Below are positions 27,102 to 35,454 of a DNA stretch of 41,317 nt, piece after piece. The position numbers and the translations under genes are program-made. The stretch's first letter is position 1, and the number at the start of each line of letters is the position of its first letter. Under the pieces are notes generated by a model. It saw nothing but the letters and a program-made list of their open reading frames with translations, had not been told where the DNA came from and made no database searches. The stretch comes from a virus: the IMG/VR virus record IMGVR_UViG_3300033551_000012, positions 1 to 41,317 of that record; one strand, 5' to 3'.

Positions 27102-29557
27102 CGGCCCACCGCCTGTAATCCAAGCTTGCCGGTCACGGCGTCGAAGGTTTCACCTTCACCCAGGAAGTTCGCAATCCACATATCGAACGATCCATCTTCA
27201 TTACGTCGAGTTTGACCGGCTTTGCTCGCGTCTTCAATAACGTTGATGTTCGGGACGTTGCGTGCGTCCCGCTCGGCCTGACCTGCGCGGATATCGTTCA
27301 GGGTTCCATCCAGTTTGGCCGAGGTCTGCGCGGTAGTCACACGCTCCCCTTTCTGCAACAGCCAGGTGCCAGTCTGCGGAACACTGTCGATACCATCGTG
27401 TGCCATACCTGCGATTTGGGAGGACAAGCCTCCAGCGAAGGCCAAGGCGCTGGAGGCTGCCGCTGGGGCTGCAAGCGGCCCAATCAGAGGGATGGCTGCG
27501 GTAGATGTAAATGCGTTCAAGCCAGCTTGGATCGCCTGCATTGCCGCCCACTTGATCCCCATTTGAATAACTGTCGTTGCGAAGGTGAGGCCGACGTTTT
27601 TGATAGCATCGCCCCAAGACTGCGTTTTCATGATCGCACCTTGCAGGTTGGTGGCAAGGCTGTCTGTGGCACCCTCCAACAGCTGCGTGGTTGCCTGCGC
27701 AGCTTGTGCGTTGTAGTCGGTCGCCTGGTCCTTGTAGTTCTGCAAGGCATCGCTCACGCCGAGCAACCAGTTACCTTGGATTTCATCAAGCTGGTTGTAG
27801 TAGTCCTGCTGGTCGGTAAGGCGCTGCGCCAGCGCTTCCTGAAGCAGTTCGGTTTCGGCGTCGTAACGGTCCTGCGTGATGCTCTTATCGTTCAGCTGCT
27901 CCCACAGCGCATTTGACTTGTCGTTGAATTCTTCCTGAATCGCCAGGAACTGCTGCGCACGCTCGCGGGCCTTGTCACCTTCGCCGGCCCCCACCAGGTT
28001 TGCCCCGTTACTCTGCTTGGCGGTTTCGTTCTCGTTGCGCAGGTTGGTTGCGAATTCAGCCAGCGCCAGGCGGTCTTCCTCGGCCTTTTTCAGTTCCTTC
28101 AGGCGGTCGAGTTCCGCGGCCAGCCCTTCCAGCCGCTGCTGTTGCGTCTTGTTGATACCGACCAGCTTGCCCGACTCGATATCGAACTGAAGCTTTGCAA
28201 CCTCGGTGGCTTCCTTGCGCTTGTCGGTGGTGGTGTTGATGAGCGCGATTTGCCGCATCAACCCTTCCTCGGTCGATTCGAACGCCGAGTTTATTTTCTT
28301 GGCGGCAGCTTCAGCAGCCTTCGCGGCTTCCTGCTGCGCTTTGGTTGGCGCAATGAAGCCCCCGCCACCTTCTGGCGGTGCAGCAAGCTGAAGGTCTTTC
28401 GCGGCATCGCGGGCTTTCTTGACATAATCGCGAATGCTGTCGCCGGCCCATGGCTTGTTCCAAGCGTCGGCAATTTCGCTGAGAACGCTGTTTGATGTGC
28501 GCGAAAAATCGATTGCGTCAGCGCTCATCTTGTCGGAGTTCTGTTTGAAGTCCGCCGACATTTCTCCAAACGTGACTTTGCTAAGCACCAGGTTTGCCGT
28601 AGCGCCCAAGCTGGTGATGTAGGCCATCGCGGTTGTGAAACCTGACACCAGACCCGCAGCTATGATCTTGAAGGTACGACCGATAGCGTCACCTGTGCTC
28701 GCCACCATGGCGGTGACTTCGATCATATCGTCAGCCAGACCGCGAATCTGCTTTTGCAGGCCCCCGGCGTCCTTGGTGGTATCCACCAGGTCTTTACCCA
28801 GCTGCGCCAAGATCGGCATGAATTCAGCAGCAAGCGCAGTTTTGGCAGCGTTGGCGTATTGGCCGAGCACCGTCAGCTGGGTATTGAATTCTTTGGCTGA
28901 GGCTATGGTCTGATCGTCAAGGATCATTCCGGTGGCTTGGGCTTCGTCGCCCAGTTCCTTGAACTTTCTGCCACCGTCTGCCAGCAGCGGAACAAGTGCG
29001 GTCGCTTCATCCGCGATGGCTTCCATGTAGAAAGTCATCTGCGCTTGCGAGACGTTCGCCTTTTGCAAGCTGCTGACGTACAGTTGCAAGGCGTCGGCGC
29101 TGTTCAGCTTGCGGAACTGCTCAGCGGTGACCCCAACCTTAGGTGCGATCTGTTCGAAAAAGTTTTGAAGCTCACCGCCACCGGTCGCAAGGAAGTCGCC
29201 AACCTTATCGTTGGTGTCCTTGAAAATGTCGGATAGCTTATCTTGCTCGATACCTACCGTTGCGGCGGCTGCGGCATAGCGCTGGAACTCGGTGGTACTC
29301 AACCCGGTCAGGTTAGCAAGGTTCTGGATTTCCTTCGCCGCCATGGCCGTGTGTGTGACCAATGCCGCCGTGAGTGTCGGAATCCCAGCGATAGCCACGC
29401 CAATCGATGCGCCCACGCCCTTCGCCCAGTCGTCGAAGGCCTTGCGCATATCGGCGGTTTGTTTCTTCGTTGCCGTGGTCGCCTTTTCGAGCGGTCCAAC
29501 GAAGCCGCTGATCTTGGCGATGAGGTCGAGGGTAAGTGTACCGAGGTTTGCGCTCAT
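27098..29557 (-). CDS. Tail tape measure protein
   Basis: The 819-residue protein has an N-terminal phage-tail measure region (GTLTLDLIAKISGFVGPLEK), long helical and coiled-coil stretches (KKINSAFESTEEGLMRQIAL and neighbours), hydrophobic segments near residues 60-75 and 740-770 (GLNAFTSTAAIPLIGPLAAP), and a C-terminal acidic end. Tape measure proteins set tail length and are ejected into the envelope during infection. At about 0.15 nm per residue the tail would be near 120 nm, a family rule of thumb. The start overlaps the G-T stop as TAATG. Confidence 0.9.
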   Translation of the reverse strand: MSANLGTLTLDLIAKISGFVGPLEKATTATKKQTADMRKAFDDWAKGVGASIGVAIAGIPTLTAALVTHTAMAAKEIQNLANLTGLSTTEFQRYAAAAATVGIEQDKLSDIFKDTNDKVGDFLATGGGELQNFFEQIAPKVGVTAEQFRKLNSADALQLYVSSLQKANVSQAQMTFYMEAIADEATALVPLLADGGRKFKELGDEAQATGMILDDQTIASAKEFNTQLTVLGQYANAAKTALAAEFMPILAQLGKDLVDTTKDAGGLQKQIRGLADDMIEVTAMVASTGDAIGRTFKIIAAGLVSGFTTAMAYITSLGATANLVLSKVTFGEMSADFKQNSDKMSADAIDFSRTSNSVLSEIADAWNKPWAGDSIRDYVKKARDAAKDLQLAAPPEGGGGFIAPTKAQQEAAKAAEAAAKKINSAFESTEEGLMRQIALINTTTDKRKEATEVAKLQFDIESGKLVGINKTQQQRLEGLAAELDRLKELKKAEEDRLALAEFATNLRNENETAKQSNGANLVGAGEGDKARERAQQFLAIQEEFNDKSNALWEQLNDKSITQDRYDAETELLQEALAQRLTDQQDYYNQLDEIQGNWLLGVSDALQNYKDQATDYNAQAAQATTQLLEGATDSLATNLQGAIMKTQSWGDAIKNVGLTFATTVIQMGIKWAAMQAIQAGLNAFTSTAAIPLIGPLAAPAAASSALAFAGGLSSQIAGMAHDGIDSVPQTGTWLLQKGERVTTAQTSAKLDGTLNDIRAGQAERDARNVPNINVIEDASKAGQTRRNEDGSFDMWIANFLGEGETFDAVTGKLGLQAVGR

Positions 29558-29865
29558 TAGTCCCAGGTCCCCATGGCTTCCTCAAGGGTGATAATTCGCG
29601 GGTCCATGTGTGGCGCGAAGTCCTCAGCATGCAGCCGCTGTGCACCCTCTCGGGTTTTGCTGTTGGCGTAAAGGGCGGTAAACCGAGCTATCGATTCTTC
29701 CGTGCGCATGCCTAAATGCAGGCTGCCCCGTTTGCGCCGGAACTTGCACCAGACGATGAACTCAGGGTACGACATATTCGCCTGAGCCTCTGCTATGGTG
29801 CGACCGCCAATGCCATTCATGACAAGCTCGCACCATAGCTCATCTATTGCCGCTAGCTCTTGATC
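29557..29865 (-). CDS. Tail assembly chaperone T extension (made by -1 frameshift from G)
   Basis: This frame is joined to the G gene upstream by a -1 shift on GGGAAAG (29865-29871), giving a G-T fusion of 127 + 102 = 229 residues. The T part begins DQELAAIDELWCELVMNGIG and contains RTIAEAQANMSYPEFIVWC and KRGSLHLGMRTEE, the pattern of DUF4035/lambda T-type chaperones. An internal ATG at 29820 could in principle give an 87-residue stand-alone protein, but the frame stays open back through the slippery site, as in lambda. G and G-T chaperone the tape measure before the tail tube assembles. Confidence 0.85.
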   Translation of the reverse strand, partial: DQELAAIDELWCELVMNGIGGRTIAEAQANMSYPEFIVWCKFRRKRGSLHLGMRTEESIARFTALYANSKTREGAQRLHAEDFAPHMDPRIITLEEAMGTWD

Positions 29866-30245
29866 TTTCCCGCGTTTTGCACTTCATTGATGGCGATGAG
29901 CAGTTTCTTGACCAGTTCACCGTCCATTGGTCCAGCTTCCGGGTTTCCGGCAATAACCTCGGGCTTATCACCAGGCTTTTGCGGAGTGCTGTACACTACT
30001 TCCCCTGTAACATCCCATGGCGTCATAATTGCCTTACCGTCAGCATCGCACAGACTGCTTGCGATGCGACAGGCCAGGATATGCGCCCCACCTTCCGACG
30101 CCGAGGAAATATCGCCCATCGCGGTCTGGAACGAAATGGGACGCACGTAGGTATCGAACGTGTGCCCATTCCATTCGATGGTTTTGCGCACCGGCTTGGA
30201 ACTGAACGCCTTTGCCGACTTCAGGCTGTCAAGGGTCAGTTCCAT
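29853..30245 (-). CDS. Tail assembly chaperone G
   Basis: The 130-residue product (MELTLDSLKSAKAFSSKPVR; CRIASSLCDADGKAIMTP; an acidic C-terminal region) has the features of phage tail assembly chaperones and lies between the major tail protein and tape measure genes. Three codons before its stop is the slippery heptamer G-GGA-AAG in the correct register for a -1 shift into the T frame. Most ribosomes should end here and a minority produce G-T. Confidence 0.85.
   Translation of the reverse strand: MELTLDSLKSAKAFSSKPVRKTIEWNGHTFDTYVRPISFQTAMGDISSASEGGAHILACRIASSLCDADGKAIMTPWDVTGEVVYSTPQKPGDKPEVIAGNPEAGPMDGELVKKLLIAINEVQNAGKIKS
29865..29871 (-). promoter_or_regulatory. Programmed -1 frameshift site GGGAAAG (G/G-T)
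   Basis: On the minus strand codons GCG-GGA-AAG read G GGA AAG, the X-XXY-YYZ slippery pattern identical to that of lambda G/G-T. The zero frame ends 9 bases later, and the -1 frame is open through the T domain. Confidence 0.88.
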
Positions 30246-31941: not shown

Positions 31942-32279
31942 ACGCCCATACCCACCCGTTGCTGATCCAGCAGGTTTGTAGCGGTCGTGTTCCCCGAACT
32001 GGGGTCAGTGGTCCGCCGTTCGTAAAAGTCGGTCAACACCAGCAGCACAGCTTGTACCACGGACTTCGGTACGGTCTGCACCACTTCGGAGGACTCGACA
32101 GGATGCAGACCCCCGGCGACGTACCATGGGCATTCCTGCGCATCGGTAATCGCCGGCCTGTTCATGTACTGCGCACAGTAGGATTCAGCAGCGTCAATGA
32201 GCATCATGATGTGCTCATCGTCGGCATCATGAATCACCAGCAACTGGCGTTTCGCTTGTTCGAGGGTAACGTAGCTCAT
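31938..32279 (-). CDS. Head-tail connector (gp6-like)
   Basis: The 113-residue protein begins MSYVTLEQAKRQLLVIHDAD followed by MMLIDAAESYCAQYMNRP and a C-terminal AVLLVLTDFYERR. This is the helical pattern of HK97 gp6-type connector adaptors, which form a ring below the portal. Normally this gene directly follows the capsid gene; here about 3 kb of modification and accessory genes intervene. Confidence 0.88.
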   Translation of the reverse strand: MSYVTLEQAKRQLLVIHDADDEHIMMLIDAAESYCAQYMNRPAITDAQECPWYVAGGLHPVESSEVVQTVPKSVVQAVLLVLTDFYERRTTDPSSGNTTATNLLDQQRVGMGV

Positions 32280-32914
32280 CAGCCCACCCGCTTCAGCGCG
32301 AACGACATTATGCCCTCACGCCCAAGTTCGCTTTCAACCTTGTTCATTTCGTGGAGTTCAAAGCCTTGGTTCTCTGCCCATGCCACGAAGCCGTCCAACG
32401 TCCAGTAGTGTAGATGCTCGCCAGGCTTGTAATGCTTGCTGGTCAACACCCCGTGGAGTCCAGTGTAGATCGGCATGGATACGAAAAGCCAGTTCGGCAC
32501 CCGAGCCATGAAATCGTCCAGGTCGGGGATGTGTTCCAAGCTATCCCAGCAGGTGACGGCGGATGGTGGGTATTTTGCGCGCTGGTTGAAACCGTAGAGG
32601 TCATACCAGCGCCCGGTGTCCTTCAGCCAGCGCACCGCGTCAGGGCACACATCGAAGCCCATCGCGTTGCAGTCTTCCGCGAAACGGCCACCACCGATGC
32701 CCACATCAACCACCACGCCACCAGGCGACCACCGGTTCACCAGGTCAATGCGGGCCTGAGTCAGTGCCGCGCCCATAGGGGTCTGGTCGAGCGCCTGATA
32801 ATTGGCGAAATAGCCGCCGTCATAGCTGATGGGTGGGGCAGTGTGGAAACCCTGGCCGCGTTCCTCAGACCACAGCAAGGTGCCTTGCAGCCCATTGGGT
32901 AAACAGATTCGCAT
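32279..32914 (-). CDS. SAM-dependent methyltransferase in the head operon
   Basis: The 211-residue protein has motif I VVVDVGIGGGRFAEDC near residue 68, an acidic residue after the next strand (GFDVCPDAVRW), and a WDSLEHIPD loop typical of Methyltransf_11/23 enzymes. A C-terminal YWTLDGFVAWAENQGFEL follows. The N-terminal 55 residues (LWSEERGQGFHTAPPISYDG) are less typical. The target is unknown. Its position with two sugar-enzyme genes in the head operon suggests O-methylation of a virion-attached glycan, or of host surface sugar. It overlaps the GT9-like gene by 50 bases. Confidence 0.8.
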   Translation of the reverse strand: MRICLPNGLQGTLLWSEERGQGFHTAPPISYDGGYFANYQALDQTPMGAALTQARIDLVNRWSPGGVVVDVGIGGGRFAEDCNAMGFDVCPDAVRWLKDTGRWYDLYGFNQRAKYPPSAVTCWDSLEHIPDLDDFMARVPNWLFVSMPIYTGLHGVLTSKHYKPGEHLHYWTLDGFVAWAENQGFELHEMNKVESELGREGIMSFALKRVG

Positions 32915-33689
32915 GGTTGCTGATCCTTTTGTCGCAGTTGTGTTGTTTGAGTTTACATTTGCAAAAGTTGTCGGGTACCGCGAACGACAGTCGGGTACCT
33001 GGTGGGCATACGTTTTCCGGCGAATTGAAGCCGCCCTGACCGCCGCAGATTATCCATGCTGGAACGCCTGCCGCGAGCGCAGCGGGAACAATCCAACCGA
33101 TGCCCCCTATAACTGCTTGCGCTCCCTGTATCAGCGCAAGCAAATGCTCGACAGCCAGTTCACCAGCGTGGAAGCGATCATGCGCAGGGGGTAGGCCCAC
33201 AGCCCACTCAAGCCCATCAGCAAGGTCGGCCACCGAGACCACCCTGTATCCAAGGTCTGCCGCGTGCTGCGCAGCCTCTGCAACGTACTCGGGCAACGGG
33301 TTGCGGCTCTCGGCTATCCACTCGCTGCGGATGGTCACGGGGCGGACCACCACATACGGCTGCTGGAACGGCGCGGGGCCGAAGTCCGGCAAATCGAATT
33401 CACCTGGTCTAACCCTGAAGCAGCCCTGCATGCCGCGCAGAATGCCTTCCGATCCGTAGGCTATGCGCAGTTCCTGCGAGCCGTGGGGCGGCAGCGACCA
33501 GGCCGAGAACCTGCCGAGGTTCTTTCGCTGGGTGCGCAGGTTGGTGTTAGGTCTGATGAACTTCACGTGCCGCAGGTCCTGATACAGCTGCGGCCATGGG
33601 GTGTCCAGGTAAACCGGCCCAGCCATCTGCTTCACGAATGCCCGCTGATAGATGTTATCGCCCAAGCCCCGCATCCCACGCACTATCAT
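32865..33689 (-). CDS. GT9-like (heptosyltransferase-fold) glycosyltransferase
   Basis: The 274-residue protein begins MIVRGMRGLGDNIYQRAFVK, the usual first-strand/Gly loop of GT9 enzymes. It has DLRHVKFIRPN, the C-terminal donor-binding region YRVVSVADLADGLEWAVGLP, and LIQGAQAVIGGIGWIVPAAL, the counterpart of the conserved Gly-Gly motif binding nucleotide-sugar. The C-terminal Cys/Lys stretch (FCKCKLKQHNCDK) is unusual. It should transfer a sugar from an activated donor; the acceptor is unknown but may be a virion protein, because the gene sits in the head operon. Confidence 0.75.
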   Translation of the reverse strand: MIVRGMRGLGDNIYQRAFVKQMAGPVYLDTPWPQLYQDLRHVKFIRPNTNLRTQRKNLGRFSAWSLPPHGSQELRIAYGSEGILRGMQGCFRVRPGEFDLPDFGPAPFQQPYVVVRPVTIRSEWIAESRNPLPEYVAEAAQHAADLGYRVVSVADLADGLEWAVGLPPAHDRFHAGELAVEHLLALIQGAQAVIGGIGWIVPAALAAGVPAWIICGGQGGFNSPENVCPPGTRLSFAVPDNFCKCKLKQHNCDKRISNHANLFTQWAARHLAVV

Positions 33690-34556: not shown

Positions 34557-34645
34557 TGCAAATTGGGTAGGAATTGAACCTACTACCTTCCCCGAGCACG
34601 CCATGGCTATAGGGGCTGCTCTCCCGATGAGCTACACAGTTTGCA
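34557..34645 (-). tRNA. tRNA-like gene, identity uncertain, possibly degenerate
   Basis: On the minus strand the 89-nt segment has a clear T-arm (GTAGG-TTCAATT-CCTAC), a clear D-arm (GCTC-ATCGGGA-GAGC) and complementary ends (TGCAAA with TTTGCA plus further pairs). The length suits a tRNA with a long variable arm. The anticodon arm is poor: around CCCCTATAGCC I cannot place a 5-bp stem with U33, so the amino acid is not assignable. No CCA is encoded. It may be a decayed tRNA or a tRNA-like structural RNA. Its 5' end falls about 7 bases after a -10 box. Confidence 0.6.
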
Positions 34646-34651
34646 GAACCA

Positions 34652-34680
34652 AAACTAATCATTATTTACGATTGTGTCAA
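34652..34680 (-). promoter_or_regulatory. Promoter for the tRNA-like RNA
   Basis: On the minus strand a perfect TTGACA (34680-34675), 17 bases and TAGTTT (34657-34652) lie in the last codons of the DUF115-like domain. The spacer holds TCGTAAATAATGA, one mismatch from the operator core. The predicted start coincides with the 5' end of the tRNA-like sequence. Confidence 0.6.
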
Positions 34681-35305
34681 GCGCGACGCGCGGAAACATA
34701 TCCAGGCTAGTCACGCGGCTCGCGTTCAGCACCTGCCGCCCCGGATAGCGCAGTTGGATTTCTGCCACCCTGAACTGACCAGGCCACTTCGCAATACTGC
34801 CCGCATTGCCCAAACCCTTCGGGTGGTCCCCATGCCAATGCTTTTCCCCGTTGGCACCGAACCCGCAGTCATAGCCCAGCATGTAGATTGCCATGGCACC
34901 ATAATGTGCGGCCATCAAAAGTGCCCCGGCACCAGAGTTAAGGCATCCGCTGCCGAAATTCGCACGCCTGGCAAGCTTGCTTTCAGCCGATCCACAGCCA
35001 CGCACACGCAGGCCCTTGAAGCCTGACCGTGTGACCTCCCCGTGGTACTGCTCCCACCACGGGGTGTCCATTGCGTACAGGGCGTCTGCCCAAGGTGCCA
35101 GCCTGAACGATGTGTTTACGACGACGACTTTGCGTCGGGCAGGGGCGGCGGCACGCCAGGCTGCAACGGCGGCAACGTCGGCGGGGTCGAGGCTTGGGCC
35201 GCTGGCGATGCAGAAGACTTCTTGCCACCCTTGGGCTGCTTGGCGGGCTTCGCCGGGGCCTGTGGGGGTGCCGGTGGCGTAGCCTTGACCGGTGCCGGCG
35301 GTTCG
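34655..35305 (-). CDS. DUF115-like sugar-enzyme domain, reached only by -1 frameshift
   Basis: The frame has no ATG, GTG or TTG before its conserved start. From the slippery site it reads RTAGTGQGYATGTPTGPGEA, then the family features EVFCIASGPSL, VVVVNTSFRLAPWADALYAM, DTPWWEQY and YMLGYDCGF followed by HWHGDHPKGLG. This pattern is shared by phage DUF115/MptE-like proteins that are often annotated as LPS-core or morphogenetic proteins. A -1 shift at 35305-35311 adds 216 residues to the first 50 of the upstream head-region gene, giving a 266-residue fusion. An ATG at 35071 would drop the nucleotide-binding half. A sequencing indel is the main alternative. Confidence 0.8.
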   Translation of the reverse strand, partial: RTAGTGQGYATGTPTGPGEARQAAQGWQEVFCIASGPSLDPADVAAVAAWRAAAPARRKVVVVNTSFRLAPWADALYAMDTPWWEQYHGEVTRSGFKGLRVRGCGSAESKLARRANFGSGCLNSGAGALLMAAHYGAMAIYMLGYDCGFGANGEKHWHGDHPKGLGNAGSIAKWPGQFRVAEIQLRYPGRQVLNASRVTSLDMFPRVALDTIVNND

Positions 35306-35454
35306 TTTCCCGCGCCACCGTCCACCTCGATCTTGCCGACCAGGCCGGTAGCGGCCATTTTCTCGATGGTCTGCGCGTCGGCGGTGACAGGATCATTGCG
35401 CTTGTAGCGGGTGCCGCCATGGATGAAACCACGGAGCGCTAAGCGAGTAGGCAT
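35116..35454 (-). CDS. Short head-region protein (DUF7210-like) with Pro/Ala/Lys tail
   Basis: The 112-residue zero-frame product has a compact domain MPTRLALRGFIHGGTRYKRN followed by DPVTADAQTIEKMAATGLVG, resembling small proteins found just after phage capsid genes. A low-complexity Pro/Ala/Lys tail follows (for example PPAPPQAPAKPAKQPKGGKK). Codons 48-50, GCG-GGA-AAC, contain the slippery G-GGA-AAC that would send some ribosomes into the DUF115-like frame. GGAG precedes the ATG. The family name is tentative; a head-completion or decoration role is inferred from position. Confidence 0.75.
   Translation of the reverse strand: MPTRLALRGFIHGGTRYKRNDPVTADAQTIEKMAATGLVGKIEVDGGAGNEPPAPVKATPPAPPQAPAKPAKQPKGGKKSSASPAAQASTPPTLPPLQPGVPPPLPDAKSSS
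35305..35311 (-). promoter_or_regulatory. Putative programmed -1 frameshift site GGGAAAC (head gene / DUF115 fusion)
   Basis: Zero-frame codons GCG-GGA-AAC read G-GGA-AAC, an exact X-XXY-YYZ heptamer. After a 5-base spacer comes a GC-rich stretch with GCCGG able to pair with CCGGC about 20 bases on. The -1 frame has a stop upstream (TGA, ~35390) and is open downstream for 216 codons. Confidence 0.7.

Follow-up and report, generated by a model that had tools for sequence, protein, structure and literature searches.

The window analysed here is a 41,317-nucleotide stretch of viral DNA (IMG/VR record IMGVR_UViG_3300033551_000012), and all features described below lie on its minus strand. Directly 3' of the gene for the major capsid protein (PF05065, 35521..36720) is a gene encoding a 112-residue protein (35116..35454), which starts with ATG at 35454 and has its stop codon at 35118-35116. 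This 0-frame gene is overlapped in the -1 frame by a stop-to-stop open stretch of 245 codons (34655..35392), which begins after a TGA and encodes an MptE-like (DUF115) domain without a start codon of its own. The overlap includes the codons for CIASGPSL (35189..35212), a motif that forms the conserved strand and loop at the N-terminus of this enzyme-like domain. In the -1 frame the motif is preceded by no ATG, GTG or TTG, and an ATC within it is the one codon that resembles a start; nor does ATG, GTG or TTG occur near the 0-frame stop.

A sequence-only reading of this DNA had proposed that the two frames are joined by a programmed -1 ribosomal frameshift on a G_GGA_AAC heptamer, and everything it said about the overlap, the frame coordinates and the missing start codons holds when the window is re-read. 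The heptamer is in exact -1 register (GCG GGA AAC, 35305..35311, codons 49-50 of the 0-frame gene), and a shift there would give, with no intervening stop, a fusion of 266 residues (34658..35454), 50 from the 0 frame (35454-35305) and 216 from the -1 frame (35305-34658). The label 'head-region' for the 0-frame gene derives solely from its position; in nearly all relatives of the frameshift class, the gene immediately upstream is likewise that of the major capsid protein. Associated genes encode a phrog_6804 protein (32865-33689) and a methyltransferase (32279-32914).

Just past the fusion stop codon lies a tRNA-like sequence (34559-34641), which scores 27.9 bits against the Rfam tRNA model (gathering threshold 29) and has about 17 bases at a place in the anticodon arm that takes 6 in the model. 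ARAGORN found no tRNA in it; the sequence is perhaps a tRNA that has degenerated or is of an unusual kind. Elsewhere in the window, the tail assembly chaperone gene (phrog_1749, 29853-30245) carries G_GGA_AAG in register near its end (29871-29865) and the following ORF (29557-29820) sits in the -1 frame, an ordinary frameshift of the lambda G/GT type and probably the one that the sequence-only reading counted as its first.

Predicted nature of the two domains

The small protein is predicted to consist of a folded DUF7210-like N-domain (residues 1-40; pLDDT 91-94 in an AF2 model) and a disordered tail rich in Pro, Ala and Lys (pLDDT about 60), so the shift falls just past the folded part. Its relatives match DUF7210 or DUF7302; PF23843 (DUF7210) was matched by 18 of 46 aligned relatives (best 1.7e-7), while the window's member had no Pfam match. 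A PDB fold search with the small protein gave no significant match.

The -1 frame domain of the window belongs to phrog_4603, annotated as 'alpha-2,3-sialyltransferase'. No sialyltransferase was found among its sequence matches or its top 50 PDB fold matches. PF01973 (MptE-like, DUF115) is matched weakly by 33 of 71 relatives (best E 8.9e-7, with bits, where shown, < 34.6), and the window's own domain has no Pfam match above threshold. The AF2 model of the domain has a pLDDT of 93, and its best PDB match is 8sd5, the MptE/HPPK pyrophosphokinase of M. jannaschii, with probability 1.00 and a TM score of only 0.43; several of its matches in a viral structure library are named MptE-like. By its model, the domain has the MptE fold. 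Several relatives apparently have the phrog_6804 protein joined in frame to the enzyme-like domain, and from this protein and the methyltransferase as neighbours one might guess at a role in modifying glycans or nucleotide-sugars.

Two arrangements among relatives

In the window a perfect heptamer is not beyond chance, so the case for frameshifting rests on relatives. About 260 loci were fetched. In 205 of them (94 after removal of loci ≥ 90% identical) the enzyme-like domain lies in the -1 frame of an upstream gene that it overlaps; these loci come from diverse, mostly proteobacterial phages and prophages and include the isolates Psp6, D3 and phi1. In another 37 (33 after dereplication) the domain stands without the overlap. 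Where location was tested, the overlap class lies directly 3' of the capsid gene and the small gene, and several standalone copies lie 3' of a head-tail connector gene. An HMM of the DUF7210-like domain matches 199 overlap loci and none of the standalone loci. Among close relatives there were no plasmid matches, a sample of 400 genomes from the genus of the starting genome returned that genome as the sole match, and a search by exact DNA pattern returned nothing.

Only 4 of 94 overlap loci have a start codon of any kind in the 75 nt that precede the motif, versus 29 of 33 standalone loci. The sequence-only reading had named relatives with a start codon and no slip site as grounds for rejecting its proposal, and this check came out in its favour: relatives with the overlap lack a start and keep a slip motif, and those that carry an ATG either have no overlap or are fused in frame.

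The in-frame case is a single metagenomic contig (L056, 2333-3073), in which one ATG gene with a good Shine-Dalgarno sequence follows the capsid gene. Its 247-residue product joins a DUF7210-like domain (E 3.4e-7 with the small-domain HMM) in frame to the MptE-like domain. There is no slip site (...CGA CCG AGG...) and both stems described below are weak (11 and 8). This contig suggests that the two-domain protein itself is under selection.

In ten loci (L032, L038, L041, L054, L062, L085, L095, L173, L177 and L184) the enzyme-like domain continues in frame for approximately 475-635 residues, most of them with a phrog_6804-like region about 540 nt downstream. With this region included, the frameshift would give a three-domain protein.

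Slip motifs and putative stimulators in the family

Slip motifs were counted as X_XXY_YYZ heptamers or C_CCY, in register and no more than 75 nt before the motif. Such a site is present in 89 of 94 overlap loci, compared with 37 ± 4.5 (maximum 49) in codon shuffles and with 15 and 24 in the other two registers. Heptamers of the form X_XXA_AAN or X_XXU_UUN number 32 in register, whereas the two other registers have 1 and 2 and shuffles yield 3.7 ± 1.9. These counts pool the first loci with a set (L203-L268) fetched after the slip rule had been formed, in which most frameshift-class members have CCCUUUA/C/G/U, CCCAAAG, GGGAAAG or C_CCY. CCCUUUN heptamers are used repeatedly by more distant relatives (L237, L244, L251, L257, L258), and the frameshift family is likely to exceed the set analysed.

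The heptamer of the window is not itself kept; relatives have C_CCY, C_CCA_AAG, C_CCU_UUN, G_GGA_AAR or U_UUU_UUG in its place. In the core of the family, C_CCN occurs in the 0 frame of 64 of 66 loci (about 9% expected), in most cases 30 nt upstream of the motif; L091 and L191, the only two that lack it, both have G_GGA_AAA. The third base is U in 36 loci and C in 19; CCA always forms part of CCCAAAG (6/6), and each of the three loci with CCG has another good motif. This usage obeys the rules established in Escherichia coli by Sharma et al. (PMC4066793), where C_CCY tetramers with a pseudoknot are proven shift motifs, CCCAAAG is proven and the best heptamer (54%), and C_CCA and C_CCG are weak tetramers. 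At several core loci a -1-frame stop lies immediately 5' of CCC, so that the shift cannot be earlier.

About 5 nt 3' of the core slip site begins a stem, GGCCGCTGGC...GCCAGCGGCC, whose loop GTCGTCTGC is able to pair with downstream GCAGACGAC in the geometry of an H-type pseudoknot. As the 3' arms of the stems also encode conserved residues, coding might mimic pairing. Three results argue against this. In standalone members these residues are encoded but the stems are lacking (medians 14.2 and 11.5 versus 22 and 19 in overlap loci), and the difference between overlap and standalone loci coding the same motif has p = 1e-7 for the hairpin and 7e-6 for the pseudoknot stem. The both-sided changes and covariation score were reached by 0 of 500 shuffles, and three sample loci gave fold z-scores of -2.4 to -3.6. 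Since the shuffle control leaves relatedness in, the pseudoknot is well supported, short of proof.

The probable slip site in the window

The window belongs to a side branch with Psp6 and four other loci (L019, L020, L021 and L203), whose members have weak stems or none. The core-family pseudoknot is absent from the window. The GC-rich pairing that the sequence-only reading saw downstream of the heptamer does not rise above chance, the fold scoring z -0.1 and +0.4 against dinucleotide shuffles. Five of the six side-branch loci have a heptamer, GGGAAAC in the window, UUUUUUG in one locus and CCCAAAG in three, and no perfect heptamer is present in L021, a close relative. By itself G_GGA_AAC in the window is weak evidence, not significant alone: in its Pro/Ala/Gly-rich stretch, some heptamer arises in 60% of codon shuffles and one of the type X_XXA_AAN or X_XXT_TTN in 17%. 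This heptamer is also rated low-efficiency in E. coli (PMC4066793).

The one candidate stimulator that stands out in the window is an upstream Shine-Dalgarno-like element, GAGGTGG (35322..35328), 10 nt 5' of the heptamer. At -7.4 kcal/mol it is the strongest anti-Shine-Dalgarno match in the gene, the best of 285 overlapping 9-mers. In L019 and L020, too, the strongest such match lies 11 nt upstream of the slip site, which makes a dnaX-like upstream stimulator plausible in the window; in Psp6 the gene has a stronger match than the element of this kind that precedes the heptamer. The distance from start to slip site is 47 codons in the window and has a family median of 48. Because its codon position fits the family and the strongest Shine-Dalgarno-like match lies just upstream, GGGAAAC is probably the shift site of the window.

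The shift might be real and yet occur in the window at the tetramers C_CCA (35266) or C_CCG (35257), which lie nearer the enzyme-like domain. The likely shift site of core relatives, C_CCN, lies roughly 30 nt upstream of the motif and the window has C_CCN at -54 and -45, but these are the two weak tetramers in E. coli (PMC4066793), on which core relatives do not rely alone. Furthermore, both the start-to-slip distance and the Shine-Dalgarno-like element fit GGGAAAC, and the sister loci L019, L020 and L203 have CCCAAAG at an equivalent distance from the start (44-45 codons). A site at either tetramer is possible but unlikely.

Alternative explanations for the overlap

That a sequencing error or an indel split one gene into a decayed overlap could be argued from the single in-frame version, L056. 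Against it stand the 94 distinct loci, among them the isolates Psp6, D3 and phi1, that show this -1 relation together with slip sites, and the covariation of the RNA stems; for the family as a whole this explanation is refuted. It is very improbable, if not quite to that degree, that the enzyme-like frame starts independently, whether from a rare AUC or AUU within the motif or through coupling to the stop of the 0 frame. The window and Psp6 do have ATC or ATT at the motif with a Shine-Dalgarno-like AAGGGTGG about 14 nt upstream, and the GenBank annotations of the Psp6 and D3 genes begin inside the domain. This codon, however, is CTC or CTT in several relatives, a start inside the motif would delete the first strand of the fold, and the usual start codons are missing near the 0-frame stop of the window.

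The preferred explanation, a programmed -1 ribosomal frameshift that fuses the small protein to the MptE/DUF115-like domain, is very likely given the absent starts, the slip motifs, the hairpin and the in-frame form of L056, together with own-ATG relatives that lack these signals. The core of the original proposal is supported by the absent starts and in-register motifs of relatives; its particular heptamer is not conserved in them, and its GC-rich pairing is not above chance in the window.

GenBank starts D3 orf7 (L008, 1849-2567) and the corresponding Psp6 gene (L001, 6050-6906) at points internal to the conserved domain. In each case the pattern resembles that of a frameshift product, with CCCAAAG and UUUUUUG respectively as slip motif.

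Proposed mechanism and role of the fusion

Ribosomes would initiate at 35454 and produce the folded DUF7210-like domain, after which a presumed minority would slip back one base on G_GGA_AAC at codons 49-50, probably aided by GAGGTGG as in dnaX or IS911. Unshifted ribosomes would run on to 35116 and give the 112-residue protein with its disordered tail, whereas shifted ribosomes would give the 266-residue fusion of N-domain, linker and MptE/DUF115-like domain. The equivalent shift in most relatives would take place on C_CCY or C_CCA_AAG, with the hairpin and possible H-type pseudoknot some 5 nt further on. It is tentatively proposed that the N-domain then tethers enzyme copies in limited number to the head or to an intermediate of its assembly, where they may modify glycans or nucleotide-sugars together with the products of neighbouring genes, if the predicted enzymatic activity is real.

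Frameshifting may instead merely limit the amount of enzyme, with the N-domain as a leader and the product outside the head. Forms with their own ATG (P1 pmgO, PAJU2 and L197) indicate that the domain can work without the N-domain. On the other hand, the upstream frame carries the DUF7210-like domain throughout the overlap class, with no standalone locus matching its HMM, and L056 retains the fusion where no shift is needed, so the N-domain itself seems to be selected. A simple dosage role is possible, though somewhat less likely than not. Tethering to the head leads to a broader and equally tentative picture, in which many proteobacterial phages would use a -1 shift, mostly on C_CCY with a pseudoknot, so that a DUF7210-like anchor would fix a small number of MptE/DUF115-like enzyme molecules on or in the head.

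Comparison with known systems

Extension of phage capsid proteins by frameshifting is known from T7/T3 gp10B, Lactobacillus phage A2 and Listeria phages A118, A500 and PSA, as described in the review by Atkins et al. (PMC5009743). There, as is proposed here, some of the ribosomes change frame towards the end of a head gene, which gives the product an added C-terminal domain, and in PSA a pseudoknot acts at a proline codon, although that shift is +1 (PMC5009743). In contrast, the base protein in those systems is the major capsid protein, whereas here it is a small DUF7210-like protein with the capsid gene only as upstream neighbour. The extension there is Ig-like or of unassigned role and here an enzyme-like MptE/DUF115 domain; in the passages of that review consulted, no enzyme domain was found among frameshift-extended phage head proteins (PMC5009743). 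The tail assembly chaperones of the lambda G/GT type also use a -1 shift on X_XXY_YYZ between two overlapping structural-region genes, and a shift of this type is present in the window as well, but the genes and their position differ and what is made is a chaperone instead of a fusion with an enzyme. The IS3-family orfA/orfB genes and dnaX share the motif hierarchy (C_CCY, CCCAAAG, GGGAAAC) and the stimulators, either a downstream structure or an upstream Shine-Dalgarno sequence (PMC4066793), but are transposon or cellular genes with other products.

P1 PmgO, P7 HdmB, PAJU2 ORF010 and D3 orf7 (phrog_4603/PF01973) contain this same domain, with motifs of the CIASGPSL type and HWHGxH. The P1 and PAJU2 members differ in having their own ATG, and D3 orf7, annotated with an internal start, is apparently a frameshift fusion as well (CCCAAAG). 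In the open-access literature no earlier description of a DUF115 frameshift fusion was found, nor any usable virion evidence around PAJU2 and D3-like phages, and the family is unmentioned in the GeneTack and PRFect main texts. Set against that literature, the -1 shift appears to have familiar mechanics but an unfamiliar product and a wide spread.

Conclusions

The frameshift family described here is patterned as clearly as that of the tail chaperones and is present in well-studied phages (D3 and its relatives), where the internal start annotated for genes of the D3 type is apparently false. With its varied slip motifs, pseudoknot versus Shine-Dalgarno stimulators, and in-frame and standalone versions of one protein, it offers a natural test set for motif rules. 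If the enzyme is placed in the head, the phage would carry, or assemble with, an activity that modifies glycans or nucleotide-sugars, and it would set the stoichiometry of a capsid enzyme through recoding.
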